Below, in pieces: positions 2,386 to 59,415 of a stretch of 64,000 bases of DNA (positions are counted from its first letter, which is position 1; each line of letters starts with the position of its first letter). The stretch covers positions 141,001-205,000 of the forward strand of contig JAODUO010001065.1 of assembly GCA_025642075.2 (NCBI GenBank), written 5' to 3'. A program made the translations under genes and the position numbers. The notes under the pieces are model-generated. The model saw nothing but the letters and a program-made list of their open reading frames with translations. It was not told the DNA's origin and made no database searches. The stretch is from Ridgeia piscesae (Eukaryota > Annelida > Polychaeta > Sabellida > Siboglinidae).

Positions 2386-2494
2386 TATCCTGGCATCACG
2401 GGGCAGTCAGAAGTGGTTATTCATCAGTGACGTGGAGACAAGACTGAATGTGACAAAACTACTGCAGAATCTGTCCGGCTTCAACCACAGTGAG
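2386..2494 (+). CDS. B3GLCT: B3GLCT exon w1 (first visible)
   Basis: Preceded by TTGCAG and followed by GTGCCT. It reads [12 protein letters not shown], then a [14 protein letters not shown] stretch, in the N-terminal stem or fringe-like region. The first base completes a codon from an unseen upstream exon, and the exon ends in phase 0. Confidence 0.88.
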
Positions 2495-5400
2495 GTGCCT
2501 AATGTTTCACCATCTATTGTTTTTAGATTCCTTATGCATTTACTGCAGTCTATTTTATCTCTGATACTGATGGCCATATCTCCATTATCTTTCTTGTTCC
2601 ACACATCTATTTTATCTTCATTATCTTTCTTTTTCCACATGTCAATTTTATCTCCATTATCTTTCTTGTTCCATACATCAATTTTTATCCCCATTGTTTT
2701 TCTTGTTCCACACATTAATTTTTATCTCCAGTATCTTTCTTGTTCCACACATCAATTTTTATCTCCATTATCTTTCTTGTTCAACATGTCAATTTTTATC
2801 TCCATTATGTTTCTTGTTCCACACGTCAATTTTTTGTTTCACACATCAATTTTTATCTCCATTATCTTTCTTGTTCCAGACATAAATTTTTATCTCCATT
2901 ATCTTTCTTGTTCCAAACATCAGTTTTTATCTCCACTGTCTTTCTTATTCCACAGGTCAGTTTTTATCTCCATTATCTTTCTTGGTCCACATGTCAGTTT
3001 TTATCTCCACTATCTTTCTTGTTCCACACATCAATTTTTATCTCCATTATCTTTCTTGTTCCAGACATTAGTTTTTATCTCCATTATCTTTCTTGTTCCA
3101 CACATCAATTTTTATCTCCATTATCTTTCTTGGTCCACACATCAGTGTTTATCTCCATTATCTTTTTTGTTCCTCACATCAGTTTTTATCTCCATTATCT
3201 TTTTTGTTCCACAGGTCAATGTTGTAGGATAGCACATACTTTGACGTGATTTGTCATTGTGTGTTCACATCTTATATGAATCTTGTTGGATGTTCACAGA
3301 GGCTGTTTATTGGACGAGGTTTATATGACAAGGAACATACGATCATACACCACTTCAACTTCCCTACGCCCCCACTGGCCTACCCTGACTTCGCTGCAGG
3401 ATTTCTCATGAGTTTGGAACTCGTCAAACAGTAAGTTGAATGTGTAGTACCAGTTTTATGAAGGGTTGTTTGTCTGGGAATTTATATTTTTTGTGAGATG
3501 AAAATTTGTTGTCAAATTAATATTATCATGAATCAATAATCTTTTATTGGGTAGACCATTATGTCAATTGTTTGAAAAAATGGTGTTGGAAAACTCTTGA
3601 AATCCTTGCTGATTGTTAAGTGTTTTGAAAACATGATTTCCTAAGATTGCCATCCAGGGTTAAAAATCAGATTGTAACTGGATGAAGAATTAACTTAAAC
3701 ATTTTGGTTTATTTCCCCCCATAACAGGGTTCACCCTGAAAAGAGAAATGCATATGTCTTTCAGGCACACCAGGGGATAAAACGATGTGCCTTGTTGAAA
3801 TGTTATGTGCCGCAAATCTGTTGGTTACAGTTTAATATTTTCATATGATGCTATGATCATATAAATAACCTGGTAAATGTCAGCATTTAATGCTGACACT
3901 GCACAAAGTTGTATTTCAAGTGATGACATGTCATAAATGAATCGACATGACATTGTTTACACTTCAACTCATCATAACTTTTGTTTCTCTGGTGGCATTG
4001 ATTTTGTAGTTTGTATAACAGTGAAAAGTGTATCTAAATATGTTTACAAATGCGGGTGTTTTATTTGCCGTGATCTATGTTGTATCATCATGAAAGCCAT
4101 GAAGACCACTGTAGCACCCTTGACATGAAATTTTCGGTGCACATTTTCACTAAATCATGGTCGATGAGTCCACCAAATAAATTAATACATTTGAAAACGT
4201 TACACCATCCAGATTAATTCAAATATACCATGGCTTCATGATCATCAAATCATGGTCCCATATCCTGTAAATAGTATGTTGTTTTGTTCAGGCAATTGTT
4301 ATTGAAGCGTTTCATCCCCCTTTAAATCACGAGTACTGATGTATTGTTTTAATGTTTCCACCAGTGTAGCAGAAAGATTGAGCTCTGTCAAGCAGAAATC
4401 CGACTTCTCTATTGATGTCAAATATGAGGTGGGTAGATTTATGTATTGAATAAGTAATAATAACTTGAAATAATCATTTCAGTGTGATAATCAACAGCAA
4501 TGTGTATTGCAAACGTGATATGGTTTCGGCCTGTTGTGTTTGTATAATTTTAATAAGACTGATTTTGATAATTATTTGTGTAAATGACTTGCTGCTCTTT
4601 GACACATGAGAGGCATGGAGCAGGCAGTGTGTACGACGGCTGTGTTGTCATGGCAACAGTGTTTCCATGAGGTAGAATGTGTGTGAGTTGGTGGCAGGGA
4701 TAATGTTGTTATGGAGACAGTGTTTACACAAGGTAGAATGTGTGGGAGTTGGTGGCAGGGATAATGTTGTTATGGAGACAGTGTTTACACGAGGTAGAAT
4801 GTGTGGGAGTTGGTGGCAGGGATAATGTTGTCATGGCAACAGTGTTTCCATGAGGTAGAATGTGTGTGAGTTGGTGGCAGGGATAATGTTGTCATGGCAA
4901 CAGTGTTTCCATAAGGTAGAATGTGTGGGAGTTGGTGGCAGGGATAATGTTGTTATGGAGACAGTGTTTACACGAGGTAGAATGTGTGGGAGTTGGTGGC
5001 AGGGATAATGTTGTCATGGCAACAGTGTTTCCATGAGGTAGAATGTGTGTGAGTTGGTGGCAGGGATAATGTTGTCATGGCAACAGTGTTTCCATAAGGT
5101 AGAATGTGTGGGAGTTGGTGGCAGGGATAATGTTGTTAGGGAGACAGTGTTTACACGAGGTAGAATGTGTGGGAGTTGGTGGCAGGGATAATGTTGTTAT
5201 GGAGACAGTGTTTACACGAGGTAGAATGTGTGGGAGTTGGTGGCAGGGATAATGTTGTCATGGCAACAGTGTTTCCATGAGGTAGAATGTGTGTGAGTTG
5301 GTGGCAGGGATAATGTTGTCAGGGAGACAGTGTTTACACGAGGTAGAATGTGTGGGAGTTGGTGGCAGGGATAATGTTGTTAGGGAGACAGTGTTTACAC

Positions 5401-8400: not shown

Positions 8401-11400
8401 CAAAATAGTGGCAATTTTCAATGAGTAATTTCAGTTGTCTTTTATAGTGTGATATAAAGTGCATGTTTTAAGATATTTGTAACAATAGACATAGGTGTGT
8501 TCTAGTCTTTCTGAAAGTGTGTTATTATAGGTGTGTTCTAGTCATTCTTGTGTGTGTTATCGTGTGTTGTGACGATTCTTGTGGTGTGTGCTTGTGGTGA
8601 GATGTTGTAGGTATGTTCTGGTGATTGTTGTGGTGTGTTTTCGTAGGTGTGTTGTAGTGATTGTTGTGGTGTGTTGTAAGGTGTGTTTTCGTAGGTGTGT
8701 CATGGTGATTCTTGCAGTGTGTTGTCAGGTGTGTGGTTGTAAGTGTGTTGTTATTCCTGCAGTGTGTTGTCAAGTGTGTTTTCATATGTGTGTTGTGGTG
8801 ACTCCTGCAATGTGTTGTCAGGTGTGTTGTCATAGGTGTGTTGTGATTCCTGTGGTGTGTTGAATAGTGCCGTTTGTGCTGAAGACATGGGGCCGACAGA
8901 CACGAAACATCGAGTACTACAGCCACCAGGTGGACGACACCATCCCTACCATAGACCTGGGTATACCCAACACAGAGGGGGGTGAGTGACACACTGCTTA
9001 CCTACTTATCTTACCTTACCTTACCTTATGACACCCTACCTTACCACCCATCACCATACCAAGTCTACCTTGATATTACATGTCCCATCAACTTGCGTTC
9101 TTACTTTACGCAATCTCCTCTCCTCATCTCAGCTTACCTATACCTGTCTTATCTTGTCACACCTTACCTTTCCTTAACTCGTAAATACATAGGCAGCCTT
9201 CTGATGTCAACAAACCATATGTAGTAATGTGCACGAATGCTCAGTGTTTTGACAGCCATTGTTTTATGGTTTGACAGCTGTTGCTAGGCAATAGGTCACA
9301 TGACGAATAGGTGGGATGCTGGTTGCATAACATGTTCCATGTGTAGGTCACTGTGCCAAGACGCATGCCATCCTGACCCGTGTCCACCACAGGCCTGGCA
9401 TGAAATGGCTGATCATTGTTGATGATGACACTCTCCTCAGGTAGGCCACCGTACTGTGCTGTGCTGTGCTGTGCTGTGCTGTGCTGTGCTGTGCTGTGCT
9501 GTGCTGTGCTGTGCTGTGCTGTGCTGTGCTGTGCTGTGCTGTGCTGTGCTGTGCTGTGCTGTGCTGTGCTGTACTGCTACTGTAATGCACTGTAATGCAC
9601 TGTAATGCACTGTAATGCACTGTAATGCACTGTAATGCACTGTAATGCACTGTAATGCACTGTAATGCACTGTAATGCACTGTAATGCACTGCACTCATG
9701 GTATTAGAGAATTAGCATAATTTTGTAATACCAATACCATATTTGTTCTATTTGTTCAGTGTACCATCAATGTTCATGCGACATGTTCAATGTGAGATCA
9801 ATGTTAATGTGATATGTTCAGTGTGATATCAAAGTTAATGTGATATGTTCAGTGTGATATCAAAGTTAATGTGATATGTTCAGTGTGAGATCAATGTTAA
9901 TGTGATATGTTCAGTGTGATATCAAAGTTAATGTGATATGTTCAGTGTGAGATCAAAGTTAATGTGACATGTTCAGTGTAAGATCAATGTTCGTATGACA
10001 TGTTCAGTGTAAGATCAATGTTCATATGACATGTTCAGTGTAAGATCAATGTTCATGTGACATGTTCAGTGTAAGATCAATGTTCATGTGACATGTTCAG
10101 TGTAAGATCAATGTTCATGTGACATGTTCAGTGTAAGATCAATGTTCATGTGACATGTTCAGTGTAAGATCAATGTTCATGTGACATGTTCAGTGTAAGA
10201 TCAATGTTCATGTGACATGTTCAGTGTAAGATCAATGTTCATATGACATGTTCAGTGTAAGATCAATGTTCCTGTGACATGTTCAGTGTAAGATCAATGT
10301 TCCTGTGACATGTTCAGTGTAAGATCAATGTTCATGTGACATGTTCAGTGTAAGATCAATGTTCATGTGACATGTTCAGTGTAAGATCAATGTTCCTGTG
10401 ACATGTTCAGTGTAAGATCAATGTTCTGTGACATGTTCAGATCAATGTTCATGTGACATGTTCAGTGTAAGATCAATGTTCATGTGACATGTTCAGTGTA
10501 AGATCAATGTTCATGTGACATGTTCAGTGTAAGATCAATGTTCATATGACATGTTCAGTGTAAGATCAATGTTCATGTGACATGTTCAGTGTAAGATCAA
10601 TGTTCATATGACATGTTCAGTGTAAGATCAATGTTCCTGTGACATGTTTAGTGTAAGATCAATGTTCATATGACATGTTCAGTGTAAGATCAATGTTCAT
10701 GTGACATGTTCAGTGTAAGATCAATGTTCATATGACATGTTCAGTGTAAGATCAATGTTCATGTGACATGTTCAGTGTAAGATCAATGTTCATATGACAT
10801 GTTCAGTGTAAGATCAATTTTCATATGACATGTTCAGTGTAAGATCAATGTTCATGTGACATGTTCAGTGTAAGATCAATGTTCATGTGACATGTTCAGT
10901 GTAAGATCAATGTTCATGTGACGTGTTCAGTGTAAGATCAATGTTCATGTGACATGTTCAGTGTAAGATCAATGTTCATGTGACGTGTTCAGTGTAAGAT
11001 CAATGTTCATGTGACCTGTTCAGTGTAAAATCAATGTTCATGTGACATGTTCAGTGTAAGATCAATGTTCATGTGACATGTTCAGTGTAAGATCAATGTT
11101 CATGTGACATGTTCAGTGTAAGATCAATGTTCATGTGACATGTTCAGTGTGCCGCGACTGAGGAGACTACTCGCCTGCTATGACCCGACAGAGCCAGTGG
11201 CTCTGGGGGAACGCTACGGCTACGCCGTCAACACTGGCCAAGGATACGACTACATCACAGGGGGCGGGGGGTAAGTCACAACTTCATCACATGAGTTGGG
11301 GGTAAGTCACAACTTCATCACAGGAGTTGGGGGTAAGTCGCAACTTCATCACAGGAGTTGGGGGTAAGTCACAACTTCATCACAGGGGGTGGAGGTAAGT

Positions 11401-14400
11401 CATAACTACATCACAGAGGGTGGGGGTAAGTCATGACTGTATCACAAGGGGCAGGGGGTAAGTCACAACTACAGCAAAGGGGTGTGGGTAAGTCACAACT
11501 ACATCACAGGGGTTGGGGGTAACTACGTCACAGAGGTGGGAAGACACAGCAACATCACACGGGCAGGGGTCAACTACATTACAGGAGATGGGGGTAAGTC
11601 ACAATTATATGTTGGTGTGGAGGGGTAAGTCACTACTTCACAGGGGGTGGGGTAAGTGTGATGTCATATTGCTGCTCAGCTGCAACACACGGCTCATTCA
11701 TCTCCGGCTGTTTTCTAATGTTTATTGACATTTCTACTAACATGTTTCACGTATAAAATTAAAAAAGTAGAGGGATGTTCTTATATAGCGCAGTATCCAG
11801 TCCTCAGGACCGTTCAAAGCGCTTTACATTTTACTTCCCTGACAGACCTGTTCACTCAGACACCATCTCAACTTCTCTTGGAAGCATCCAGCCTTATGCT
11901 ACAATTAATGCACGAAGGCTGCTCGTACACATATCCACCACTGTCTATTGCCAGGTACTCAGTTATACAGCTGAGTGAACTGGAGCAATGTAGAGTAAAA
12001 TAAAAATTGCCTAATGTTTTAACACCGCAGCACAGGATTCGAACCTAGGTTCTCATAGGCGAAAGTCCGAAGCTCTACCCCTGAGCCACTGCGCTCTACT
12101 TTACATCCCAGAATACCAATTACACCTGAAAAATAGCATATCTTCATGCGACTGTTTGTTGTGGTTACATTTCGCATTTCAATCTTTTTTACATATTTTA
12201 GATATGATCATGAATTGTTTGATGACAATCCTTTGTATAGGACTTTAAAGTGAATTGAATTACATAGGGGTGAACACAGGGTGCCTGTCGATAAAACAAG
12301 TTGAGAACTACTGCTCTAGAACCCTCCACTGTTGGGTCAGCGGTGATGTGAGCTGTTAACCACAGTCATGTTAATGCTAAACTATCATATTTTGACGTTG
12401 ACTGGTGTGGTATGGTTGCCCTGTTCATATGATGGGGTTTTGATTCACAGTTAATATTTCGGAATTGCTATTTTACATGACTTGTGTAATTGGTATTCGG
12501 GGATAATATTAATATAACCTACTTATCCTGCCCACCATTTCGCTCTTTGTTGGCACAATCTAAATTACGCTGTTGACCATCATCAAACTGAACAGTTTCA
12601 AGAGTGTTTTCATAAATACGACACGACGCCTGTTAAAGCGACATGATCAGTTCGTGGCTTTTTATTTTTATTGCAAAATCATGTTAATCAGTATAAGTTA
12701 TAACTATTGTGGCGTCCTGACTGCCAATAAATGTTTTATTGAAACAGAACTGACTTTGTAATGTTAAACGTCGAAGGTTTATAAGAATCCCTACGCTGTC
12801 ACTCAAATCGCCATGAGTGACACCCACCCTTTGACCTTTACCAACTGGGAGCCATGCACCTGGCTGGGTGTGGCGTTAGTGGCGTCAACTTGTTTTCACG
12901 TGATACTGCATCGCGTGATCATGCATTTCCTTCTGTTAAGCGCCCTTACTGCGTCTATTTTCAATCCCTAAATGGTACATGAAAACATATTTTGACTGTC
13001 TTTATGCTATAATAGGTATAATTTGTACCGTATAACATGATTTTGCAATAAAAATAAAAAAGCCACGATCGGACCATGTCGCTTTAAGTCAACCTTTCCA
13101 ACATGCAGACAGATCTCACTGAATCAAGTTTATCTCATGTTTAGGTAATAAAGAACAACATTTGGAACGATTATTCCAACAAGATACACAACGAAACATC
13201 TGAACACTGCACATGCTCGGCATCCATTTGGTTGTCTTGACTGAGTTTGTTGCTAGGCAACAGGTGACATGAGGTGACTCAGTGTGCTGCGTTGTGTGTT
13301 GTAGGATGGTGTTCAGTCAGGCAGCTGTACACACGCTAGTGGAGGGGAACGATTGTCGCTGTGGTGTTCCCAACTCTCCCGACGACATGCACCTTGGCAT
13401 GTGTCTCAAGCGATTTCACATCCCTCTCACTCACAGCCCCCTCTTCCACCAGGTAGGCACCCTCCCAGGAAACTTGTTAAACAGGGTACTGGGTGAGTAT
13501 GTGGGAAATGAACCCCAAAACACTGTATTCAAGCACTGTTTAAATTGAAAGCATATGCTATATAAAACATAGGTCCTACATTTGTTCACACATAACACAC
13601 TTTTCAGACGCCACCTCTTTGTACTCACCAAATATTGCCAGAAATGGCCTTAGTAATGTCTTTTATGACATGACTTCTTCCAATACCTCAACATGTTATA
13701 TTTCTTTATATTCAGCCAAACAAGTAGTGCCCAGACACATTGTTCAGGACACCATAATGTTATGTACGGACACATTTACATACAGACACATTTTGTATTT
13801 GTTTGATTTTTGTGTGATACATAATAGGATTTAACGCTGTTGAACCTGAGTATGCTTTTCTTGCATTGTGGCTACTTTTAAACACAGTATTTGTGTAATT
13901 TTAATAGTAGTGGCGACTTTCAATGTGGACGTGACTGCATGTCACAAATGGCTGACGATAACAACAATCATTTTTTAACAAAAACATCCAGAGCACAAAA
14001 CAAAAACTACCTTCGATCTTCTAAACTAAACTCTCATTTTAAAGAGGTGAAAGTTACACTAATATATCTCCCCAATCTCTGCTTATTTCCATTTCACTGC
14101 ACCCACTGTTGTTTGCAGTTTGTACGTGAGAGTGTGCCTGGTATGTGACTTGTGATGACACTAGTGTCATGAAGTGTCATGTGATATGCTATGTGACTTG
14201 TGATGACACTAGTGTCATGAAGTGTCATGTGATATGCTATGTGACTTGTGATGACACTAGTGTCATGAAGTGTCATGTGATGTGCTGTGTGACTTGTGAT
14301 GACACTAGTGTCATGAAGTGTCATGTGATGTGCTGTGTGACTGTGATGGCACTAATGTCATGGACGTGTCATGTGGTGTGCTGTGTGACAGATGACACTG

Positions 14401-15250: not shown

Positions 15251-15254
15251 TCAT

Positions 15255-16790: not shown

Positions 16791-16794
16791 TAGT

Positions 16795-16910: not shown

Positions 16911-16984
16911 GTAAACCTTTTCAACAGTTGTAATTAAAGTGCACTCTTATTAAACAAACTGTAGATTTATATATCAACAAATTA

Positions 16985-21181: not shown

Positions 21182-22130
21182 GGGAAACGTGATGACATCT
21201 TGATTCCAAAGTCGCACCCCTTGGCCCTCATGTTGTTATTATGACCCCCTACATCTTGATTCCAAAGTCGCACCCTTTGGCCCTCAGGTTGTTACTATGA
21301 CCCCTACATCTTGATTCCAAAGTCACACCGTTTGACCCTCTGGTTGTTACTATGACCCCCTACATCTTGATTTCAAAGTCACACCCTTTGGCCCTCTGGT
21401 TGTTACTATGATCCCCTACATCTTGATTCCAAAGTCACACCCTTTGGCCCTCTGGTTGTTACTATGACCCCCTACATCTTGATTTCAAAGTCACACCCTT
21501 TGGCCCTCTGGTTGTTACTATGACCCCCTACATCTTGATTCCAAAGTCACACCCTTTGGCCCTCTGGTTGTTACTATGATCCCCTACATCTTGATTCCAA
21601 AGTCACACCCTTTGGCCCTCTGGCTGTTACCATAACCCCCTACATCTTGATTCCAAAGTCACACCCTTTGGCCCTCTGGTTGTTACTATGACCCCCTACA
21701 TCTTGATTCCAAAGTCACACCCTTTGGCCCTCTGGTTGTTACTATGACCCCCTACATCTTGATTCCAAAGTCACACCCTTTGGCCCTCTGGTTGTTACTA
21801 TGATCCCCTACATCTTGATTCCAAAGTCATACCCCTTGGCCTTCAGAATGTTATTATTACCCCCTACATCTTGATTCCAAAGTCCCACCACTTGGCCCTC
21901 AGGTTGTTATTATTACCCTACATCTCGATTCCAAAGTCGCACCACTTGGCCTTCAGAATGTTATTATTACCCTACATCTTGATTCCAAAGTTCCACCACT
22001 TGGCCCTCAGGTTGTTATTATTACCCTACATCTCGATTCCAAAGTCGCACCACTTGGCCTTCAGAATGTTATTATTACCCCCTACATCTTGATTCCAAAG
22101 TCGCGCCCCTTGGCCCTCAGGGTGAGGAAG
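21182..22130. repeat. 56-bp array copied from the ABR/BCR C-terminus and stop
   Basis: About 16 units of about 56 bp, containing TACATCTTGATTCCAAAGTC and CACCCTTTGGCCCTC. On the minus strand these are copies of the last codons of the gene: R-A-K-G-x-D-F-G-I-K-M followed by TAG. The first copy (22082-22130) is the actual end of the coding sequence. Copies at 21840-22080 differ (CAGAATGTTATTATTACC, 50-55 bp). Confidence 0.93.
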
Positions 22131-53100: not shown

Positions 53101-56100
53101 CATTTTAAATACCACTATTGCTAAAGCTACAGCTATGCAGGGGTTAATTATAATTAATTATGAATCTTCCGCAATAATGCTGGTTAATTAATAACAAATA
53201 AAATCTAAAAAAATTACCTTGGTGGCATCAACGTTCAAAATGAGCACATTAATTAATTAATTGATGTTTTTAATACCAACAACCATAAGTGACTCTTCCC
53301 ACATTGCATTATGTCATTTTTTACCTAAAGACGTCTTACATGCGTTTTTGGCAGAATGTGAACAATTGATGTCTTGCTGATGTAAAGGAGTTGTTTCCAT
53401 CATTTCTACACCGCTTATGCAAATTTAAACATCTTAAATATTGACCTTTCTATCTGTGAATCTAAGCTGTGCAGCCGCGTTCCTCGTGGCAACCACTAAA
53501 TAACTTACTTATCTGACATGCTTCAAGCAGGTTACTAAATGTATTGAGTCATTTAGTCAAGTACTAGCATCTTAACAAAGTAATTTTGGGTAAATATCTC
53601 TCACTAATGGGAATCACTACATTTACAATAACTCTTTGAGTGAACACTTACCCGGGAAGCAGGACGAGAAAGAATTTTTTTGCGATCCTACCACGTAACG
53701 CGTATATTAATAGGTTACAAATATTAAATTGGTAACAATGTAATTACAATCTACATAGGTGTTCAAGTGCATTGCTACATTTCAAGTGCATTGCTACTTT
53801 TCATGATGCTGAAATATATAATTAATTTTTGGTATTTGTATTACCTTGACTGTCAATACAACACATGGACTGTCATTGATTTGTTTGTGGTCAATGAAAT
53901 GCTATTAAATTGGAGGAAAAACTCAAGTAACCATTACAGAATCAGAGTGAACGAAAATAAAAACATCATGTAAGCATATCTTCTACATTAATTTTCCTTT
54001 CAAATATAACAAAAACCTACAAAGTGATATCAGCCCACTGACCATAAATCAAGTACACAACCCTAAAAATAGCCCTCAACTTAACAGCAGCCCTATGAAA
54101 GGACAGCAAACACAATGTGACTGAAAAAATGTAACACTTCACTAACTTAAAGGGCTGTAGTTACAGGTTCTATTTATGAAAGCAGTTTTTGAAAGTATAC
54201 TTCCTTCATTTTATAGGGAGGGGTGTTCTCATAATTTCTAAGTCAAAAATAATTTTTTTTATCATGTGCACCATCTCCCCTATGACACAGAATGAGGAAT
54301 TTATAAATAATGCACATTTCACCAATCAAATGACCATCATTTATGCCAAAGCATAATGAAGATGCTTCAAGTTTGAATTAAATAGAATGAATGGAGGCAC
54401 AAATAAATCATCAGATGCGCAAAACCACAATACAGGTTTGTAAGACAACAGATAGGTTAATATATCATGTACATAACTGACACGACAGAAAACACTGTCT
54501 TGTTCCAACACCCACAGCAGTGTGCAGTAGTACCACTTTCCGCTGTCAGGTGGCACCACAAAACAGTTGCGTTCCTGTGAAATGTTCCTGTGTGTTTTTT
54601 ATTTGATTTTTAAAGCGGGTATGACAGCACATAGGTTTTATTTTTTCATTTAATATTACGTCCTTATGACTACAACACGCATGTTGAAGGTTTACTGCCT
54701 GCCAACTTGTGCTTAGTTACTTTACTAAGCTCGGAACAATGTTCACAAAACATCAAATTTCAATACAAAATTGACTGGCAATAATGCTGATGTGAGCTGA
54801 GTTAACCACAATAGCCTTTTGATGTTTAATCCACATTCTAGACAGCCGACTTCCCATTACAAATGACTGCTCTACCAATTCTGGGCAGATGAGACACCCA
54901 CCCTTTAACACTGTCAATTGCTGAGTGTTGTCGTGTGGGGAGCAGTGGTCGCGCGGTAGAGCGCCGGACTGTCAATCGAGGGGACAGTGGTCCAATCCCA
55001 CCTACCGCCGTTTTGAAACTTAGGCAATTTCGTTCACCCCCCACATTTGCCTGTGTCTTTTGGAAGAGACACTAAACGCCTGTGGTCCCTTATATCTGGT
55101 GACTATCTGGTGTCTATGTCAGAGGAAGTAAAATATCCCACACAGGGGGGGTAAATGTGTAACCTGAAGGACAACTCCTGTCTTAGCCTAAATTTGGGCT
55201 GTTTGGAGGTAACCACCTGAGACCTAAGAGGTGTCACTGACACATGTACAGTGTCACATGTAGACTGTCACACCAGCCTTCCATGTGACACTCCCACCTG
55301 TCACTCACCTGTGTGACTTCTCTGAAGCGAGTGTTCTGCTGGGAACACCTGCGTATGGCTGCGACGGCGTCGTGGTAGTTCTTCAGGTACGTTGTGGCCA
55401 GTGGGTACTCCGCCAGTGCCTGACACAGACGGATGGGTACTTAAATACATTTTTATTTTTAAATAGCTCAACTAGCATATCATTTTAATTATTTATTCCT
55501 TCGTATCTGTCAATTTACATATATTTAATTAGTTATTATTATAAGTGACACTAATAAGGTATTGTTGTAGACATTTATTATTAATTAACTACTATTTATA
55601 TATTTATTTATTGAGAGATAACTCCCAATAATTCCACCAATTCAATGCCGCTTCTGTCATATGACATTGAACAAATAAATTTGGCAATACCTACTAGTAC
55701 GACTTGTTGACATTATCCCTCAAGAAATAAACATTTGTGTTATTGAAATATTCTATAGAGTTCTATTGTGTTCTCAGTTTTGCAAATGAGTACACCCATA
55801 ATTTTATCACAGTTTCATAGCAACAAAGATTGCACAATGCAGTCGAACTATGTTTCATCAGAGGTAATATTGACAAATACTGAGAAGAATAAAATTGTGA
55901 AATAATTTAGGCAAGCTATTTATTAGTTTCTTTGACATCTGTGTGGTGTCATTGATGTGTCTCACCAACACTTTGAAGAGTTCTGCGATCTGAGTGGCCG
56001 ATGTCCAGCACTTGACCCGTGGCTCGAGCTGAGAGATGAAGTCACAGTGGATGCTGTAGAGCTGAGGGATGTTGCAGAAGATGGTTTCAATGTCTTCACT

Positions 56101-57220
56101 CGTGATCAGGATGTGTGGCGTCTCAGCCAGAGATTTGAACGTCTTCATGTACTACAACACACACCACGGGTTTGTCTACAGACTGTAGCAGTCTCAGCCA
56201 GAGACCTGAATGTCTTCATGTACTACAACACACACCACGGGTTTGTCTACAGACTGTAGCAGTCTCAGCCAGAGACCTGAATGTCTTCATGTACTACAAC
56301 ACACACCACGGGTTTGTCTACAGACTGTAGCAGTCTCAGCCAGAGACCTGAATGTCTTCATGTACTACAACACACACCATGGGTTTGTGTAGAGACTGTG
56401 GCAGTCTCAGTCAGGGACCTGAACATATTCATATACTACATCACACATCATGGATTTGTCTAGAGACTGTGGCAGTTTCAGTCAAGACCTGGATGTTTTC
56501 ATGTACTACAACACACATCATGGATTTGTCTAGAGACTGTGGCAGTCTCACTCAGAGACGTGAACGTCTTCATGTACTACAACACACAACGTGGATTTGT
56601 CTAGAGACTGTGGCAGTCTCAGTCAGAGACCTGAACGGCTTCATGTACTACAACACACATCATGGATTTGTCTAGAGACTGTGTCAGTTTCAGTCAAGAC
56701 CTGGATGTTTTCATGTACTACAACACACACCATGGGTTTGTGTAGAGACTGTAGCAGTCTCACTCAGAGACGTGAACGTCTTCATGTACTACAACACACA
56801 TCATGGATTTGTCTAGAGACTGTGGCAGTCTCACTCAGAGACGTGAACGTCTTCATGTACTACAACACACAACGTGGATTTGTCTAGAGACTGTGACAGT
56901 TTCAGTCAAAGACCTGAATGTCTTCATGTACTACAACACACATCATGGATTTGTGTAGAGACTGTAGCAGTCTCAGTCAGAGACCTGAACGTCTTCATAC
57001 ACCATGAGTTTAACTAGAGACTGTGGCAGTCTCAGACAGAGACCTGAATGTCTTCATGTACTACAAAACACATCATGGGTTTACCTAGAGACTGTGGCAG
57101 TCTCAGCCAGAGACCTGAATGTCTTTGTGTACAATACACACACAAACACACTGTGCATAGCTTTATCTAGAGACTGTGGCAGTCTCAACCACAGACTTGA
57201 ACGTCCTTATGTACAACACA

Positions 57221-57307
<87 letters not shown>

Positions 57308-57567
57308 CACAAACACACACACAAACACAAACACACTGTCATCTATGGCAGTCTAGAGACTGTCACAGTTTCTAGATAAAGCTATGCTACACACATTGCT
57401 TTTTGTTATGTGCAAAGTCACTGAGACACCTGTGTATTGAGACGCACCTGTTGCAGTGTGTTGAGGATGTCCACGTAGGCACGCTCACTGTCCAGGATGC
57501 TGCTGATGACCCACTGTCTCATCTGTAGAGTCTCTGCCTCAGGACATGGAGACACCACCATGTCCAG
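22082..57567 (-). CDS. ABR/BCR: ABR/BCR-type RhoGEF-RhoGAP (DH-PH-C2-RhoGAP)
   Basis: This gene encodes a dual regulator of Rho-family GTPases: the DH-PH part would promote GDP release, the RhoGAP part would speed GTP hydrolysis, and the C2 domain would bind membranes. I read 20 complete exons and one truncated exon, about 650 residues. DH is on exons a1-a5 (ETIFCNIPQLY, SLEELLHKPVVRVQRNTLAL). PH and its linker are on a7-a11 (YDCKWFVALADL, SSDYERSVWRD). C2 spans a12-a17 (LYGSLYVTIHKLQGLD, DAFGHFCNKAKT, LRILCYK). RhoGAP is on a18-a22 (VPIIVTSCIEEVENRG, arginine finger in GLYRVSG, LLKLYYRELPEALFTD, MSINNLSTVFGPTLLKP). The order matches vertebrate ABR/BCR. No BCR-type N-terminal kinase region was seen; exons upstream of a1 may lie outside. 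One PH-side exon (a6) is missing and a21 is truncated, so as assembled the frame is broken. Confidence 0.93.
22335..22430 (-). mobile_element. Short SINE fragment
   Basis: CAGTGTCCAGTCCTCAGGAC and the following CATGGTAGAC resemble the tail part of the SINE at 11770-12115 (CAGTATCCAGTCCTCAGGAC). Only about 95 bp remain. It lies just 5' of exon a22 in the intron. Confidence 0.6.
22431..22799. other. Intron a21, unique sequence
   Basis: Unique intron sequence between the SINE fragment and the 34-bp array. No missing RhoGAP codons were found here. Confidence 0.5.
22800..23835. repeat. 34-bp donor-type array from the exon a21 3' end
   Basis: About 30 copies of a 34-bp unit, GAGACGTCATACCTGACTAG plus ATGAGTGAGATATA. 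On the minus strand each unit reads CTCATCTAGTCAG|GTATGACGTC. Read in the phase demanded by exon a22 this encodes (T)-H-L-V-R, matching the EHLKR that precedes VAE in ABR/BCR. Each unit therefore holds the last codons of exon a21 with its donor. Copies near 23580-23830 carry many small indels. Confidence 0.9.
23840..23862 (-). pseudogene. ABR/BCR: Truncated remnant of ABR/BCR exon a21
   Basis: Minus strand TTTGCAG|GTCTGTCAGACCCTGATAGT, then CAG|GTATGT. With the phase from exon a20 it reads S-L-S-D-P-D-S-Q, matching family EGI-ALSDP. Only 23 bp remain, where about 35 residues are expected before HLVR-VSQ. The 23 bp also leave the wrong phase for exon a22. The exon core is therefore deleted or lost in assembly at the junction of the two arrays that copy its ends. 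Confidence 0.8.
23863..24850. repeat. 35-bp acceptor-type array from the exon a21 5' end
   Basis: About 29 copies of a 35-bp unit, CTAGTTCAGGGTCTGACAGA plus CCTGCAAACAATGAT. On the minus strand each unit is ATTGTTTGCAG|GTCTGTCA plus GACCCTG: the acceptor and first 15 bases (L-S-D-P) of exon a21. A minor variant (AATACTC for AATGATC) recurs every few units, indicating higher-order duplication. Confidence 0.93.
24851..25140. other. Intron a20, unique part
   Basis: AT-rich unique sequence between the 35-bp and 30-bp arrays. Nothing else recognised. Confidence 0.5.
25145..27079. repeat. 30-bp donor-type array from the exon a20 3' end
   Basis: About 65 copies of a 29-30-bp unit, GGTGGGGATACTTACTGATG plus CCCTCCACTA. 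On the minus strand each unit is CACCTAGTGGAGGGCATCA|G plus TAAGTATCCC: the last six codons of exon a20 (H-L-V-E-G-I) with the GTAAGT donor. The 30-bp units preserve frame, so retained sequence would read HLVEGISKYP or HLVEGISNYP repeats. Alternating CTTAC and GTTAC variants mark donors that differ (GTAAGT versus GTAACT). Confidence 0.95.
27080..27214 (-). CDS. ABR/BCR: ABR/BCR exon a20, RhoGAP core
   Basis: Minus strand acceptor TTTCAG, donor GTAAGT. Reads NSRGAVQLLADTDIHVVTCL, then LKLYYRELPEALFTDHLYPH and LVEGI. LLKLYYRELPEALFTD is a RhoGAP signature with the conserved Lys and Arg. Phase 1 in and phase 1 out. Confidence 0.97.
27215..27940. other. Intron a19, unique part
   Basis: Unique AT-rich sequence between exon a20 and the 21-bp array. 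No exon or mobile element recognised. Confidence 0.5.
27945..28637. repeat. 21-bp array, CCTCCCCTTATCTACGCGCA
   Basis: About 33 nearly identical 21-bp units. The edges carry variants (TTGTCTACGTG on the left, TACGCGTAAC on the right), and the central 26 or so copies are identical. Because 21 is divisible by 3, long frames stay open on both strands (NLPLSTR, SPYLRAT, RLRVDKG), but these are repeat artefacts. It lies in intron a19 about 100 bp downstream of the exon a19 donor and does not copy that exon. It is unusually CpG-rich (TACGCGC). Confidence 0.95.
28744..28821 (-). CDS. ABR/BCR: ABR/BCR exon a19, arginine finger
   Basis: Reads GLGETGLYRVSGLSGQIQSL, then KKAYER. The Arg codon at 28796-28798 is the catalytic arginine finger of RhoGAP domains (family motif G.YRVSG). 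Acceptor GAGCAG, donor GTACTG (weak consensus). Phase 1 in and phase 1 out. Confidence 0.96.
28822..29159. other. Intron a18, no repeats
   Basis: Unique intron sequence about 340 bp long. Nothing recognised. Confidence 0.5.
29160..29221 (-). CDS. ABR/BCR: ABR/BCR exon a18, RhoGAP start
   Basis: Reads TREGVQVPIIVTSCIEEVEN, then RG. It matches the family stretch KRERSKVPYIVRQCVEEIE. Acceptor TTTGCAG, donor GTGAGA; phase 2 in and phase 1 out. Confidence 0.95.
29225..30395. repeat. 28-bp array, CACACAAACACTAAACACTG
   Basis: About 42 copies of a 26-28-bp unit with TGTGATACCA. It starts three bases upstream of the exon a18 acceptor (minus strand) and covers the adjoining intron side of that acceptor. 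Variants (CTCTGTGATATC, ATTGTGATACC) occur in blocks. It has no exon codons. Confidence 0.93.
30396..30866. other. Intron a17, unique part
   Basis: AT-rich unique intron between the 28-bp array and exon a17. No gene recognised. Confidence 0.5.
30867..30970 (-). CDS. ABR/BCR: ABR/BCR exon a17, C2 end and linker
   Basis: Reads LTLSLKYVNSQQTLSRTPSA, then VKGGIFGVKLGVVAT. It matches family VKLSVKF followed by TGVFGVKIAVVTK. Acceptor GTGCAG, donor GTAAGT; phase 0 in and phase 2 out. Confidence 0.95.
30971..31270. repeat. Diverged repeat beside the exon a17 acceptor
   Basis: About eight diverged copies of CACCTGAATCAACAGCAATG with GTACACA spacers, about 35 bp each. It starts at the exon a17 acceptor and contains its CTGCACC or CTACACC intron side but no exon codons. 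Confidence 0.8.
31391..31450 (-). CDS. ABR/BCR: ABR/BCR exon a16, C2 domain
   Basis: A 60-bp exon reading LSRAWLRGDFQEKMISLNEK, aligning with family LDPQALQDRDWQRTVIAMNG. Acceptor TTGACAG, donor GTAAAT, phase 0 to phase 0. Confidence 0.9.
31575..32088. repeat. 68-bp donor-type array from the exon a15 3' end
   Basis: About seven copies of a 68-bp unit. On the minus strand each contains AGACAGACAGTCTGCTTGGC, AAATTTGCCCTTGAG or the T/A variant, then GTAACTCC: the last 11 or so codons of exon a15 (T-D-S-L-L-G-K-C-A-L-E) with its donor. They are followed by intron sequence TCTGAAATAGTTGACAC. Confidence 0.93.
32089..32187 (-). CDS. ABR/BCR: ABR/BCR exon a15, C2 domain
   Basis: Reads GFEIDLDGAQTLRILCYKLG, then NETDSLLGKCALE. 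It matches family EFEIELEGSQTLRILCYEK and GKGQ. The loop between CYK and LLGK is much shorter than in vertebrate ABR/BCR. Phase 0 to phase 0; donor GTAACT. Confidence 0.96.
32255..32440 (-). mobile_element. SINE body copy
   Basis: GAAGCATTCAGCCATGCAGC, then CAGGTAGTCACCCACACAGC resembles the SINE body at 11870-11970 (GAAGCATCCAGCC, GCCAGGTACTCAGTTATACAGC). The tRNA head is absent. It lies in intron a14. Confidence 0.6.
32645..33165. repeat. 30-bp minisatellite downstream of exon a14
   Basis: About 17 units of roughly 30 bp, TGTACACTGTACTTAGCACC plus AAGCTATAGCC, alternating with an ACACAAAGCTACACGA type. The 60-bp dimer is the higher-order unit. It ends at the exon a14 donor (minus strand) but contains no exon codons. 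TGTACACTGTACA is partly palindromic. Confidence 0.92.
33174..33271 (-). CDS. ABR/BCR: ABR/BCR exon a14, C2 domain
   Basis: Reads DCFCTMETDAFGHFCNKAKT, then SIVCGSAEPVWNE. It matches family LYCTLEVDSFGYFVNKAKT and DTAEPNWNE. Phase 1 in and phase 0 out, donor GTAAAC. Confidence 0.96.
33272..33869. other. Intron a13, unique part
   Basis: Unique AT-rich intron. Nothing recognised until the retroelement end fragment at 33870. Confidence 0.5.
33870..33932 (+). mobile_element. Solo end of the Penelope-like element
   Basis: TTAACTTACTTTGGAGCTTA, then AACGTACGATGTTTCCACCC and ATCAGCTGTAGG match the left end of the element at 52141-52205 (TTAACTTACTCTGGAGC, AACGTACAATGTTTCGACCC, ATCAGCTATGAG). No coding sequence accompanies it. 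Confidence 0.65.
34251..34331 (-). CDS. ABR/BCR: ABR/BCR exon a13, C2 start
   Basis: Reads DLGLEEEYLYGSLYVTIHKL, then QGLDTDC. It matches family GLYGFLNVIVHSATGFK, the first strands of the C2 domain. Phase 1 in and phase 1 out, donor GTAAGC. Its first half is the template of the 88-bp array to its right. Confidence 0.95.
34332..36185. repeat. 88-bp acceptor-type array from exon a13
   Basis: About 21 copies of an 88-bp unit. On the minus strand each holds intron GATTGTGTTTGTCAG, then the first 40 or so exon bases reading D-L-G-L-E-E-E-Y-F-Y-G-S-L, then a switch to intron sequence (CACCATGCTCAATATAAACA). Two variants alternate: TATTCCTCTTCCAGTCC (close to the exon) and TAGTTCTCTTTCAGTCC. About 20 of these are truncated pseudo-exons with intact acceptors but no donor. 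Confidence 0.96.
36355..36391 (-). CDS. ABR/BCR: ABR/BCR exon a12 (37 bp)
   Basis: A very small exon reading KLQDFRLTLERD. It matches family KLQTVHSIPLTINKEDD between PH and C2. Acceptor TTGTAG, donor GTGAGT. Phase 0 in and phase 1 out, which fits both neighbours. Confidence 0.85.
36392..36843. other. Intron a11
   Basis: Unique sequence with no array. No other feature recognised. Confidence 0.5.
36844..36902 (-). CDS. ABR/BCR: ABR/BCR exon a11, PH end
   Basis: Reads VKVSVNISIPDLQTLINSQK, aligning with family SFSLTSVELQMLTNSCVK. Acceptor TTTGCAG, donor GTAAAG; phase 1 in and phase 0 out. Confidence 0.88.
37080..38005. repeat. 26-bp array, GTCAGACTGGGTCACATGAC
   Basis: About 34 copies of a 26-bp unit with AACACG, AACACA, AACATG or AACACT, in intron a10. 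No similarity to the neighbouring exons. Confidence 0.95.
38072..38122. repeat. (TA)n microsatellite
   Basis: An uninterrupted TA tract of about 25 dinucleotides. Confidence 0.95.
38192..38333 (-). CDS. ABR/BCR: ABR/BCR exon a10, PH domain
   Basis: Reads EAALLKISPHLLFTLKDKKV, then DKTYFLLMSSDYERSVWRDT and ILGLMAQ. SSDYERS.WR with its Trp is the C-terminal PH helix motif shared with ABR/BCR. Acceptor CACTAG, donor GTGAGT; phase 0 in and phase 1 out. Confidence 0.96.
38486..38595. repeat. 51-bp inverted repeat (hairpin) in intron a9
   Basis: The left arm 38486-38536 and right arm 38545-38595 are complementary at 49 of 51 positions, with an 8-bp loop. It starts ACTTAAGCAAATTTCATGAT and ends with the complement. 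No terminal duplication is obvious. It may be a fold-back MITE or a palindromic duplication. Confidence 0.93.
38870..39000. repeat. (GGGA)n purine tract
   Basis: GAGGGAGGGAGGGAGGGAGG-type G-rich sequence just downstream (minus strand) of the exon a9 donor, degenerating to GAGAGACGG. It has several GGG runs. Confidence 0.85.
39011..39076 (-). CDS. ABR/BCR: ABR/BCR exon a9
   Basis: Reads RHWSMRSHTKTIDKLKRKLA, then EQ. It matches family KGSKATERLKKKLSEQ, the basic coiled segment inside the PH region. The acceptor GTGTCCAG was chosen because only it keeps the phase from a8. The exon's first 17 bases are the template of the adjoining array. Donor GTAAAC. Confidence 0.88.
39077..39725. repeat. 34-bp acceptor-type array from the exon a9 5' end
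   Basis: About 19 copies of a 34-bp unit, TTGACCAGTGGTGCTGGACA plus CAACAAACATCTGA. On the minus strand each is TTGTTGTGTCCAG|CACCACT plus GGTCAAT, i.e. the acceptor and first codons of exon a9 (R-H-W-S). The exon copy has GGCGCTGG where most units have GGTGCTGG. Confidence 0.93.
39929..40050 (-). CDS. ABR/BCR: ABR/BCR exon a8
   Basis: Reads DDPCMPDGKRREISVIEHRV, then SVLQSELKTEMKKMKQAEQG. A charged helical insert in the PH region aligning with family DELDALKIKISQIKNDIQREK. Acceptor GTGTAG, donor GTCAGG; phase 1 in and phase 0 out. Confidence 0.92.
40051..41105. repeat. Acceptor-side repeat of exon a8, split by a LINE
   Basis: Units such as CAGATCATCTAAACAAACAC occur at 40051-40112 and again at about 40805-41095. 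On the minus strand they read GTTTGTTTAG|ATGATC, the acceptor and first bases of exon a8. The two halves are separated by the LINE fragment, which therefore inserted into a pre-existing array. Confidence 0.8.
40113..40800 (+). mobile_element. LINE 3' fragment (CR1-like reverse transcriptase end)
   Basis: Two overlapping plus-strand frames give the C-terminal end of a LINE reverse transcriptase: KAMVRPQLEYASCVWCPHL, VQRRATRVVPETKGLPY, then after one frameshift near 40300 KELQLPTLNYRRQRTDIIQT, and further on VKMWNSLSDDTIQ and a stop at 40663. A 3' UTR follows, with GGTCTTGAGGTAAGATCTTG repeats at its end. The reading frame is dead: 5'-truncated and frameshifted. Confidence 0.9.
41191..41267 (-). 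CDS. ABR/BCR: ABR/BCR exon a7, PH domain
   Basis: Reads QKVHYDCKWFVALADLELDT, then RTGAQ. It matches family QQYDCKWYIPLTDL. Acceptor CTGTAG, donor GTATGT. It needs a phase-2 upstream exon, which is not found. Its first half seeds the array to its right. Confidence 0.94.
41268..42270. repeat. Composite array with pseudo-copies of exon a7
   Basis: Short units CTTCTGTCTACAGACAAACA plus ACAAGTCAGCG are interspersed with longer copies (about 41281-41340, 41568-41615, 41720-41765, 42028-42085, 42125-42180, 42215-42270). On the minus strand these read CTGTAG|ACAGAAGGTGCACT and continue through Y-D-C-K-W-Y-I-T-L-A-D-L before jumping back to intron. It is an acceptor-type array with at least two unit sizes. 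Confidence 0.9.
42271..43060. other. Intron a6, unique sequence
   Basis: No exon for the missing DH-end/PH-start segment was found on the minus strand, and no mobile element was recognised. CACTGACAGTGTGGTG- and CACTGTCAGTTATCAG-type words near 42420-42560 are weak local repeats. Confidence 0.5.
43061..44060. other. Anomalous homopolymer-rich block
   Basis: The base texture differs sharply from its surroundings: runs such as CCCCCCACTG, GGGGGAAAACCC, CCCCCAAATGG and doubled bases throughout. Short words recur (GGACCCTAAAACATGTTT twice, CCCCTGAAG several times). Frames are open on both strands, but nothing resembles DH or PH. It may be a badly assembled or polished tandem repeat. The missing exon a6 should lie between here and 49458. 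Confidence 0.55.
44065..49457. repeat. 5.4-kb, 37-bp donor-type array from exon a5
   Basis: About 140 units of a 37-bp repeat, ACCTACGTGTAAGGCGAGTG plus TGTTTGTGGCTGTGTGT. On the minus strand each reads AACACACTCGCCTTACAC|GT plus AGGTACACACAGCC: codons N-T-L-A-L-H of exon a5 and its GTAGGT donor. Copies at about 47500-48300 are nearly perfect. Those at 44600-47500 and 48300-49350 carry many deletions and homopolymer changes. A CTACGTG/CATG variant alternates in blocks around 47550-47850. Confidence 0.96.
49458..49510 (-). CDS. ABR/BCR: ABR/BCR exon a5, DH signature
   Basis: Reads ELLHKPVVRVQRNTLALH, aligning with family TLLYKPVDRVTRSTLVLH, the conserved helix of the DH (RhoGEF) domain. Acceptor CTTGCAG; donor GTAGGT, the first of about 140 tandem copies. 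Phase 1 in and phase 0 out. Confidence 0.95.
49545..49755 (-). mobile_element. SINE body copy
   Basis: CTGTATAGCGCAGGACCCAG, then ATTAATGCATGAAGACTATT and CAGGTAGTCATTC correspond point by point to the SINE at 11775-11980 (TATAGCGCAGTATCCAG, ATTAATGCACGAAGGCTGCT, CAGGTACTCAG). It has no tRNA head and sits in intron a4. Confidence 0.75.
49790..51720. repeat. 39-bp minisatellite in intron a4
   Basis: About 50 copies of a 39-bp unit, CAGACTTGTCTTCCTAGAAG plus ACAGGGACATGTGACAGCC. Sub-types (TATAAGACAGGG, AGAAGACACAGGGCC) form alternating blocks, so higher-order units exist. It is not copied from exon a4 or a5. Long minus-strand frames are repeat artefacts. Confidence 0.95.
51913..51955 (-). CDS. 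ABR/BCR: ABR/BCR exon a4 (43 bp)
   Basis: Reads EISCRGLTEKPSLE. With its neighbours it gives FREVTQ-EISCRGLTEKPSLE-ELLHKP, aligning with family FAEIS, then SLETLLYKP. Acceptor CACAG, donor GTAAGT. Phase 0 in and phase 1 out, which fits both sides. Confidence 0.88.
52141..52806 (-). mobile_element. Penelope-like retroelement fragment with GIY-YIG domain
   Basis: On the minus strand the region HKPANTLRSMVENPKDRTP, then IYDITC, HTYIGGTEGPLSQRFKEHT and RELNWHKRKVTEAIY is the C-terminal GIY-YIG endonuclease end of Penelope-like elements. A TAG at 52296-52298 interrupts the frame, which otherwise continues IALAPTMNRDQDLQPN to a TGA at 52197-52199. Upstream of HKP a TGA and frameshifts end similarity, so it is 5'-truncated and dead. 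Inverted repeats of about 50 bp (52141-52191 and 52760-52806) flank the piece. Confidence 0.88.
52865..53048. repeat. 24-bp array, CCCATAATACACCTGTATCA
   Basis: Eight virtually identical 24-bp units directly after the retroelement. 24 is divisible by 3, so frames stay open in all directions. Confidence 0.95.
53049..54934. other. Intron a3, unique AT-rich part
   Basis: AT-rich intron sequence with several TTAATTAA-type words (53140-53270). Some segments (for example 54130-54180, TTAAAGGGCTGTAGTTACAG) resemble ends of small DNA elements, but no second end was identified. No exon recognised. Confidence 0.45.
54935..55235 (+). mobile_element. tRNA-headed SINE
   Basis: Starts with a tRNA-like head: GGGAGCAGTGGTCGCGCGGT (box A region), an anticodon-like stem-loop GGACTGTCAATC, and box B-like GGTCCAATCCC, ending near CCTACCGCCG. 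A body (AGAGACACTAAACGCCTGTG) and a tail (AATTTGGGCTGTTTGGAGG) shared with 16795-16910 follow. The body and tail argue against a functional tRNA gene. It lies in intron a3. Confidence 0.8.
55309..55419 (-). CDS. ABR/BCR: ABR/BCR exon a3, DH domain
   Basis: Reads ALAEYPLATTYLKNYHDAVA, then AIRRCSQQNTRFREVTQ. It matches family ASQLGVYRAFVDNYGVAMEM and C.QANAQFAEIS. Acceptor GTGTCAG, donor GTGAGT; phase 0 to phase 0. It has no adjacent array. Confidence 0.95.
55420..55965. other. Intron a2
   Basis: AT-rich unique sequence, no repeats or mobile element recognised. Confidence 0.5.
55966..56151 (-). CDS. ABR/BCR: ABR/BCR exon a2, DH domain
   Basis: Reads YMKTFKSLAETPHILITSED, then IETIFCNIPQLYSIHCDFIS and QLEPRVKCWTSATQIAELFK. 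It matches family VLTSQQIETIFFKVPELYEIHKEF and L.PRVQQW. Acceptor TTGTAG, donor GTGAGA; phase 0 to phase 0. Confidence 0.97.
56152..57200. repeat. 71-bp acceptor-type array from the exon a2 5' end
   Basis: About 14 units of 70-71 bp. On the minus strand each contains GTGTGTTGTAG|TACATGAAG, then bases encoding roughly Y-M-K-T-F-R-S-L-A-E-T before switching to GCTACAGTCTGTAGAC. The four units nearest the exon are almost identical. Farther units are more diverged (AGTCAAGACCTGGATGTTTT, CACTCAGAGACGTGAACG), so the array looks youngest next to the exon. Confidence 0.95.
57215..57335. repeat. (CA)n microsatellite
   Basis: A long ACACAC tract with a few AACACAAAC interruptions at its right end, inside intron a1. 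Confidence 0.95.
57448..57567 (-). CDS. ABR/BCR: ABR/BCR exon a1 (first visible), DH start
   Basis: Reads LDMVVSPCPEAETLQMRQWV, then ISSILDSERAYVDILNTLQQ. It matches family MRQLVLGGILASEETYLSHLEAL, the first DH helix. Acceptor TTGCAG, donor GTGCGT; phase 0 to phase 0. Upstream exons with the N-terminus were not found to the right. Confidence 0.94.
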
Positions 57568-58065
57568 CTGCAACAATAACATGCTCAAATAACTGAAATA
57601 ACAGTCTCAAATAACAGTCTCTACCTCAGGACATGGAGACACCACCATGTCCAGCTGCAACAATAACATGCTCAAATAACTGAAATAGCAGTCCAAATAA
57701 CAGTCTCTACCTCAGGACATGGAGACACCACCATGTCCAACTGCAACAATAACATTCTCAAATAACTGAAATAACAGTCCAAATAACAGTCTCTACCTCA
57801 GGACATGGAGACACCACCATGTCCAGCTGCAACAATAACATTCTCAAATAACTGAAATAACAGTCTCAAATAACAGTCTCTACCTCAGGACATAGAGAGA
57901 CCACCATGTCCAGCTGCAACAATAATAGAATCATATAAGTCTCCAATAACATTCTAAAATAACAGAAATAACAGTCTCAAATAACAGAAATAACTGTCTC
58001 CCTCTTGTGACTTGGAGACACAAGAATGTCCAGCTGCAACAATAATGCTCTCAAATAACAGTAAG
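57568..58065. repeat. Acceptor-type array from the exon a1 5' end, units of about 85 bp
   Basis: Five units. On the minus strand each has GTTATTGTTGCAG|CTGGACA, then TGGTGGTGTCTCC and ATGTCCTGAGG, that is acceptor plus L-D-M-V-V-S-P-C-P-E, followed by TAGAGACTGTTATTTGAGA intron sequence. Related, more diverged pieces recur at 59225-59410. Confidence 0.92.
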
Positions 58066-59117: not shown

Positions 59118-59219
59118 CCCACCTCAGGACTTTGAGACACCAAGTCCTGAGGTGGGTTATTTCTGTTATTTGAGACTTGGTGTCAGTAGTGACACCAAGT
59201 CTCAAATAACAGAAATAAC
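59118..59219. repeat. Two adjacent perfect hairpins built from exon a1 repeat words
   Basis: Hairpin 1 has 14-bp arms (59118-59131 and 59143-59156, CCCACCTCAGGACT). Hairpin 2 has perfect 30-bp arms (59156-59185 and 59190-59219) with a 4-bp GTAG loop. The words ACCTCAGGAC, GAGACACCA and AAATAACAG also form the exon a1 array, so these are inverted rearrangements of it. Confidence 0.95.
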
Positions 59220-59415
59220 AGCCTCAAATAACAGAAACAGCAGTTTTTGCTTCAGGACATGAAAACACTACCACATCCTGCTGCAACAATAACTTTCTCA
59301 AATAACATAAATAACACTTTCAAATAAAAAAATGTCAAATAACATAAATGACAGTCTACCTCAGGACACGGAGACACCGTCATGTCCAGCTGCAACAACA
59401 ATACTTTCAACTAAC
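59220..59415. repeat. Diverged outliers of the exon a1 array
   Basis: Two degraded units: CAGGACATGAAAACACTACC near 59253 and CAGGACACGGAGACACCGTC near 59362, each followed by CTGCAACAA. On the minus strand they keep the TTGCAG acceptor look-alike and decayed exon a1 codons. Confidence 0.8.

Follow-up and report, generated by a model that had tools for sequence, protein, structure and literature searches.

The window analysed here is a 64,000-bp stretch of the Ridgeia piscesae genome (contig JAODUO010001065.1, positions 141,001 to 205,000; positions below are counted from its first base). It carries two genes, a B3GLCT-like gene on the + strand (gene w) and a BCR/ABR-like gene on the - strand (gene a), and many of their introns hold repeats copied from the adjoining exon edge, splice site included.

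Ten exons of gene w were found, spanning positions 2386–14967. The best structure match of its product is the beta-1,3-glucosyltransferase 12em_A of the PDB (E = 1.5e-129), and its Pfam match is Fringe. Gene a, the exons of which run from 57567 down to 22082, matches the RhoGEF structure of BCR (5n7e_B; E = 5.8e-30) and contains the Pfam domains RhoGEF, C2 and RhoGAP. The proteins of both genes are animal-like, yet diverged from their nearest solved relatives. The gene models, with 31 exons in all, were annotated by hand and then checked by sequence searches; exon w6 was lengthened by one base, to 8981, for the edge alignments. The exon numbering of an initial annotation (a1–a22, w8) agrees with our exon table except for a6, so that 21 of its 22 gene a exons are located. 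Since the first located exon of each gene starts at an acceptor, upstream exons presumably exist in both genes; none was located in the window. The intron following exon w5 (7625) is apparently of the GC-AG type (GAG/GCAAGA), the GC donor having been picked because it keeps the reading frame.

Copying of exon edges

Tandem Repeats Finder (TRF) returned 123 rows for the window. After those with a period below 15 or a score below 100 had been discarded and the remainder merged, 35 array blocks were left, which occupy 31,043 of the 64,000 bp (48.5%) and form the basis of the placement tests described below. Repeats with a period of at least 15 account for 50% of the intron bases of gene w and 62% of those of gene a.

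From each exon end up to 60 terminal nt (all of the exon where it is shorter than that) were aligned with the exon's own adjacent intron or flank, giving 62 ends (31 acceptors, 29 donors and two coding ends). Controls were provided by the exon's own intron in reverse and by the corresponding introns of other exons; acceptors were compared with introns lying upstream of exons and donors with those lying downstream, and the intron on the other side of the exon in question was excluded. Twelve ends exceeded their controls: six acceptors (a1, a2, a7, a9, a13 and a21), five donors (w8, a5, a15, a20 and a21) and one coding end, that of a22. The scores of these edges range from 35 to 76, against a top control score of 30 for any edge. 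The terminal exon base is part of the copied stretch in every case, and 18–55 nt of exon are copied (median 38; ten edges, a21 excluded). Gene a contributes 11 of its 42 ends and gene w one of its 20, and 8 of 29 introns have a copied edge when the stretch from a5 to a7 is counted as one intron.

Several other borders show weaker relationships. An array edge lies within 20 nt of the border, with no significant exon copy, at the acceptors of w1, w6, w8, w10, a17 and a18 and at the donor of a14. The score of the a9 donor, 23, exceeds that of its best control, 22, but is below the cut-off of 24, and the match is off the edge. Eight windows from exon interiors, a small control, revealed no copying. 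When the 62 windows were compared with the opposite side, two attained the cut-off of 24 (a7 and a21); both come from short exons into which their own arrays extend. The edge results for a21 are inflated because this exon itself resembles its own donor unit, a similarity of its interior that is visible by eye. The a21 donor array covers 80 exon nt and was left out of the TRF-edge test.

The initial annotation had proposed fourteen such edges: eight acceptors, five donors and the stop codon of a22. Twelve of them hold, including every donor and the stop-codon array. The acceptor of a8 is marginal, its score of 21 equalling its own control maximum and AG being present in 2 of 6 copies; the array at the w8 acceptor does contain AG but takes in three exon bases only, not the first codons, and its exon copy is not significant. 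The unit sizes originally given, 30–88 bp, agree with the main TRF periods of the arrays at the twelve copied edges (a7 has an additional period of 92). For the figure of up to 140 copies, reached in the a5 array, length divided by period yields 143 and TRF 155, a count which is approximate because the stretch is indel-rich.

Table 1. Exons with copied or array-adjoining ends, and the associated repeats
Feature	Position	Strand	Remarks
Exon w1	2386..2494	+	B3GLCT-like
Exon w8	11148..11270	+	B3GLCT-like
Exon w10	14755..14967	+	B3GLCT-like; last coding exon
Exon a1	57448..57567	-	RhoGEF domain start; Pfam and structure match
Exon a2	55966..56151	-	BCR/ABR-like; RhoGEF
Exon a5	49458..49510	-	BCR/ABR-like; RhoGEF
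Exon a7	41191..41263	-	Between RhoGEF and C-terminal part of PH region
Exon a8	39929..40050	-	BCR/ABR-like
Exon a9	39011..39076	-	BCR/ABR-like
Exon a13	34251..34331	-	C2 domain start; Pfam
Exon a15	32089..32187	-	BCR/ABR-like; C2
Exon a20	27080..27214	-	RhoGAP; Pfam
Exon a21	23767..23862	-	BCR/ABR-like; RhoGAP; 96 nt as sequenced
Exon a22	22082..22295	-	BCR/ABR-like; last coding exon, TAG end
Array to w1 acceptor	1880-2391	+	38 bp; AG in 12/12; shares about 6 exon nt, not significant as an exon copy
Array up to w8 acceptor	9753..11150	+	31 bp; AG in 42/43 copies
w8 donor array	11246..11592	+	31 bp; last 25 exon nt
Coding array within w10	14873-14958	+	27 bp, in frame, near protein C terminus
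a1 acceptor array	57529..57925	-	86 bp; AG + first 39 exon nt
Further a1-edge copies	58003-58039, 59250-59286, 59359-59395	-	
a2 acceptor array	56114..57233	-	71 bp; 38 exon nt; AG in 12/12 scored copies
a5 donor array	44068..49475	-	37 bp; last 18 exon nt; ~140 copies by length; GT in 78/97 scored copies
a7 acceptor array	41219..42272	-	32/92 bp; 45 exon nt; AG in 4/5 scored copies
Degenerate repeats 5' of a8	40045..41092	-	19/38 bp; 13 exon nt in common, marginal
a9 acceptor array	39059..39752	-	34 bp; 21 exon nt; AG in 19/19
a13 acceptor array	34293..36185	-	88 bp; up to 55 exon nt; AG in 19/19
a15 donor array	31578..32123	-	68 bp; last 38 exon nt; GT in 6/6
a20 donor array	25139..27101	-	30 bp; last 26 exon nt; GT in 62/65
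a21 acceptor array	23847..24876	-	35 bp; AG in 27/28
a21 donor array	22814..23846	-	34 bp; GT in 18/18
a22 coding-end array	21195..22118	-	56 bp; last 43 coding nt including stop codon

No match to Rfam was found at the gathering threshold, and a Pfam search with six other open frames produced a single, subthreshold match to GIY-YIG (52299-52601, - strand; 17 bits against a curated cut-off of 22.6), in a frame that is perhaps the remnant of a Penelope-like element. Frames at 40116-40663 (+ strand) resemble by eye the end of a LINE reverse transcriptase, although two pieces had no Pfam match. At 61864-61968 the hexamer TGTATT is repeated perfectly, (TGTATT)n, over 17.5 units.

Properties of the copies

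The copies are of local origin. For each of the twelve edges the match in the adjoining intron or flank is superior to those in the corresponding introns of the other exons of both genes, and dispersed introner-like elements are thereby rejected within the window. Copies were picked without gaps at an identity of at least 0.62, with the result that diverged ones were missed (97 of about 143 were scored at a5). Of the 274 copies scored in ten arrays, 250 retain the splice dinucleotide (AG or GT) and 217 the whole tested splice signal (7–12 nt); the signal tested at the donors of a20 and a21 was 7 nt since the unit ended there. These 274 copies represent ten of the twelve edges. The donor of w8 is outside the count because its copies have slipped one base out of register (GT in 1 of 8), and a22 because it has no splice site; the arrays at a8, w1 and the w8 acceptor were likewise excluded.

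Such retention is what one would see if the copies served as spare splice sites, decoys or splicing enhancers under selection. The conservation of the splice dinucleotide is, however, ordinary: in 13 arrays, 31–97% of all dinucleotides in the unit show equal or better conservation, in a test that disregarded copies with no difference from the exon-joined unit (leaving, for example, 9 of 28 copies at the a21 acceptor and 64 of 97 at a5). Since the splice dinucleotide ranks no higher than the others, the decoy sites look neutral, and selection on them is rejected for want of any excess conservation. Nor do the donor units, 31, 37, 68, 30 and 34 bp long, preserve the reading frame, with the sole exception of the 30-bp unit of a20, and we consider a function of this kind most improbable. 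Read-through from exon a20 into its array stays open for five more units.

The copy joined to the exon is identical or nearly identical to the array consensus at a5, a9, a20 and the a21 acceptor, and clearly unlike it at a13, a15 and a22. The a13 consensus is without four nucleotides that the exon has, and in that of a15 the terminal exon base is altered (GAG to GAT). The arrays thus differ in age or in homogenisation. Seven copies of the a1 edge outside the exon were listed; five of them have GAG/GT where the exon reads GAGGC, and such units consist of an acceptor AG, 30 in-frame nucleotides and a potential donor GT. Two further a1-edge copies, at 59250-59395, lie some 1.2–1.4 kb beyond the next copy with non-array DNA in between; they may belong to an older array or to one that later sequence has interrupted.

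The G+C content is 0.421 for the window and 0.526 for the exons. Fourteen overlapping matches to the G-quadruplex (G4) motif were found. An origin driven by G4 structures was rejected, as the border arrays are without the motif save for one match in the indel-rich a5 array.

Proposed seeding and amplification of the arrays

With arrays filling about half of the window, some would be expected to overlap exon ends by chance. Two placement models were used to evaluate this, circular shifts of the array blocks (4,000) and a selection-aware random placement (1,500) in which no array was allowed to contain an exon, to lie inside one, or to reach further than 60 nt into one. Eighteen borders have an array edge between 20 nt outside and 60 nt inside the exon, compared with means of 2.7 under shifts and 5.8 under selection-aware placement, and neither model ever produced as many. 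Fifteen borders are crossed by at least 1 nt, a number again never reached (means of 2.0 and 4.3, respectively). For crossings of at least 8 nt the observed number is 10; the mean under shifts is 1.8 (0/4,000 as high) and that under selection-aware placement is 3.8. In a separate seed null the observed unit lengths were placed randomly over the gene span and seeds lying wholly inside an exon or spanning one were rejected; a mean of 1.0 seed, and at most 6 in 4,000 trials, had at least 16 exon nt, compared with 12 edges, which were found by alignment and hence by a different measure. Exon-edge copying thus exceeds random seeding in this window, chance is disfavoured here, and we hold it to be a very unlikely source of the pattern as a whole.

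The possibility that long-read assembly created or inflated the repeats draws on three observations, all connected with arrays. The a5 array (44171-49475) has an indel:substitution ratio of 3.1, an excess which looks like uncorrected long-read error. Exon a6, expected to specify the end of the RhoGEF and the start of the PH domain, was not found between 41264 and 49457 by tblastn with fragments of human BCR, for which hits on the minus strand were listed above 17 bits: the top hit of the relevant query (E = 1.7) is located elsewhere, and weak hits within the a5 array (E = 2.3 and 5.6) are unconvincing. The stretch searched contains the indel-rich 5.4-kb a5 array, and the exon may be absent or obscured by sequence errors. 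Thirdly, exon a21 reads 'SLSDPDSQVCSAL' at its start and 'LSLVMMLTHLVR' toward its end in different frames, a break which may reflect a sequence error or a damaged allele; like a6, it adjoins arrays. Against an artefact, the indel:substitution ratio is 0–0.75 in seven other arrays, and the mirage (see below) of amphioxus PGBD5 was upheld by re-examined Sanger and new Illumina data in the portions of PMC3902484 available to us. Copy numbers may well be wrong without the arrays being false, and it is scarcely credible that assembly has generated the arrays themselves.

We believe that the arrays are probably mirage-type (exon-stuttering) minisatellites which arise from exon-biased seeding combined with purifying selection. 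Under this scheme a short segment overlapping an exon end would be duplicated in tandem, and amplification through slippage or unequal exchange would then extend the array into the intron or the 3' flank, while the copy joined to the body of the exon would remain the working splice site or stop codon. The duplications would begin preferentially in exon-overlapping DNA. Those lying entirely within an exon would be lost unless they kept the frame, and the 27-bp array of w10 would be the one such survivor; those crossing one edge would survive because their outer copies are intronic. Splicing could tolerate decoy sites intact in their hundreds if, according to exon definition, each exon is recognized as one unit, the real site being the one that adjoins the exon body; the spliceosome would then ignore the decoys, as exon definition and the published indications of normal splicing at other mirages would suggest.

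Alternatively, splice junctions themselves might trigger duplication, through co-transcriptional splicing, nucleosome or methylation borders, or AGGT-like microhomology. Splice junctions make up eleven of the twelve strong edges, copying at these invariably begins right at the border, and an array edge comes within 20 nt of the seven further borders listed above, all of which would fit border-specific seeding. The a22 array, on the other hand, copies a stop-codon edge that has no splice signal, which indicates that splice signals need not be the seed, and the rate for coding ends (1/2) is no lower than that for splice edges (11/60), tiny as these numbers are. As acceptors, donors and the end at a stop codon are all copied, there is no single signal common to all. 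We regard border-specific seeding as rather unlikely. The exon-border rule of the initial annotation is borne out insofar as copying exceeds random seeding; splice borders are nevertheless not the whole rule, because the a22 edge is copied and w10 contains an in-frame coding array. The statement that one rule governs both genes likewise survives in part, for it extends to both strands, to acceptors and donors and to many unit sizes, but is lopsided, with 11 of the 12 edges in the BCR/ABR-like gene.

Several considerations weigh against exon-biased seeding with purifying selection as the explanation. Exon-biased and border-specific seeding are not separated by a single in-frame coding array and such tiny numbers. 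In the weakest of the placement results, 5 of the 1,500 selection-aware maps matched the ten observed crossings of at least 8 nt, and the seed null and the aligned edges are not measured alike. Because the window was picked as striking, the chance figures describe the window and not the genome, and with nearly all edges in one gene the events are not independent samples of that genome. A genome-wide process, as deduced in the initial annotation, would go beyond what one such window supports. The evidence consists of one sequence of one species, at the DNA level only.

Relationship to mirages and exon stuttering

The arrays are a known phenomenon in an unusually dense form. The initial annotation had pointed to a 'mirage' precedent in amphioxus, and this is real. 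According to the portions of PMC3087553 and PMC3902484 available to us, amphioxus mirage minisatellites are known in Adh3, the globin genes BflGb6 and BflGb9, TnC and PGBD5. Their units span the exon-intron border, acceptor or donor, and measure 10 to about 160 bp; AG or GT is retained in many copies, and the boundary copy is excluded from homogenisation. Data on Adh3, together with RT-PCR of the globin transcripts, suggest that splicing is undisturbed (PMC3087553). As in amphioxus, the units found here at 11 of 60 splice ends comprise a splice site together with the exon bases next to it, and either exon border may be duplicated (6/31 acceptors, 5/29 donors). Exon-joined copies that are consensus-like in some arrays and divergent in others fit a minisatellite turnover from which the boundary is excluded (PMC3087553). 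The globin and PGBD5 genes, as described, have one or two affected borders per gene and no more than seven units (PMC3087553, PMC3902484), whereas the present 64 kb contain twelve copied ends, among them a stop-codon edge, and an array that reaches about 140 units. Length polymorphism and somatic instability are traits of the amphioxus mirages, whereas the present arrays are known from one sequence. No genome-wide study of mirages was among the matches listed in our literature search, most subscription papers being outside its scope.

Two other systems bear some resemblance to these arrays. The introns of amphioxus VCBP3 contain complete or partial exons, some with canonical splice sites, which are like the adjacent coding exons, and the tandem-repeat density of that gene is similar to the remainder of that amphioxus genome (PMC2632668); unlike our arrays, the partial exons are not described as tandem arrays in the sections of that paper available to us. 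In potato RdRp an intron was gained by tandem duplication across an intron-exon border (PMC4974935); the duplicated copy there has an acceptor, and its donor derives from exonic sequence. Most a1 units have a comparable layout (AG/30 nt in frame/GT), but unlike the potato copy they are no more than potential exons. A gene with 11 duplicated exon ends bears on intron gain by tandem duplication, and offers a natural test of site choice among many identical splice sites. It also carries a warning for annotators, as assembly and gene prediction can easily go wrong on genes with such arrays and break them.

The second close parallel is the avian 'exon stuttering' described in 2026 (PMC12954441, from the parts available), in which introns are filled by local repeats of the lateral part of an exon plus its splice site. 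In the chicken 236 introns of 115 genes are affected, 190 of them on the dot chromosomes, where they constitute 3.4% of 5,572 introns. The copied exon part is 20–187 bp long (median 36), more than 90% of the sources lie within one base of the border, coding regions are intact and the genes are GC-rich. Its authors speculate about replication stress caused by GC content and G4 structures, or about meiotic conversion, call the phenomenon novel to their knowledge, and also mention gerbil genes. The window differs in not being GC-rich or G4-prone (42% GC) and in having 8 of 29 introns affected; individual length variation is an avian trait, and here there is a single assembly. It shares with the birds a median exon part of 38 nt, a copied part starting within one base of the border (12/12) and tandem repeats that heavily cover the introns.

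Two bodies of work are joined by this comparison. The amphioxus papers (PMC3087553, PMC3902484) predate the bird paper, from which mirages are missing: the text of PMC12954441, when searched, does not contain 'mirage', 'lancelet' or 'cephalochordate', and has 'amphioxus' in one cited title only. The window, for its part, weighs against GC-richness as a necessary cause. We tentatively suggest, while thinking it on balance doubtful, that lancelet mirages and avian exon stuttering might be one recurrent mutational process of chordate genomes, a tandem duplication seeded in exon-overlapping DNA and seen only at exon or coding edges since selection removes the rest. Such a process would need neither GC-rich DNA nor splice signals, and the intact decoy splice sites that it leaves behind in their hundreds would be raw material from which introns could be gained.

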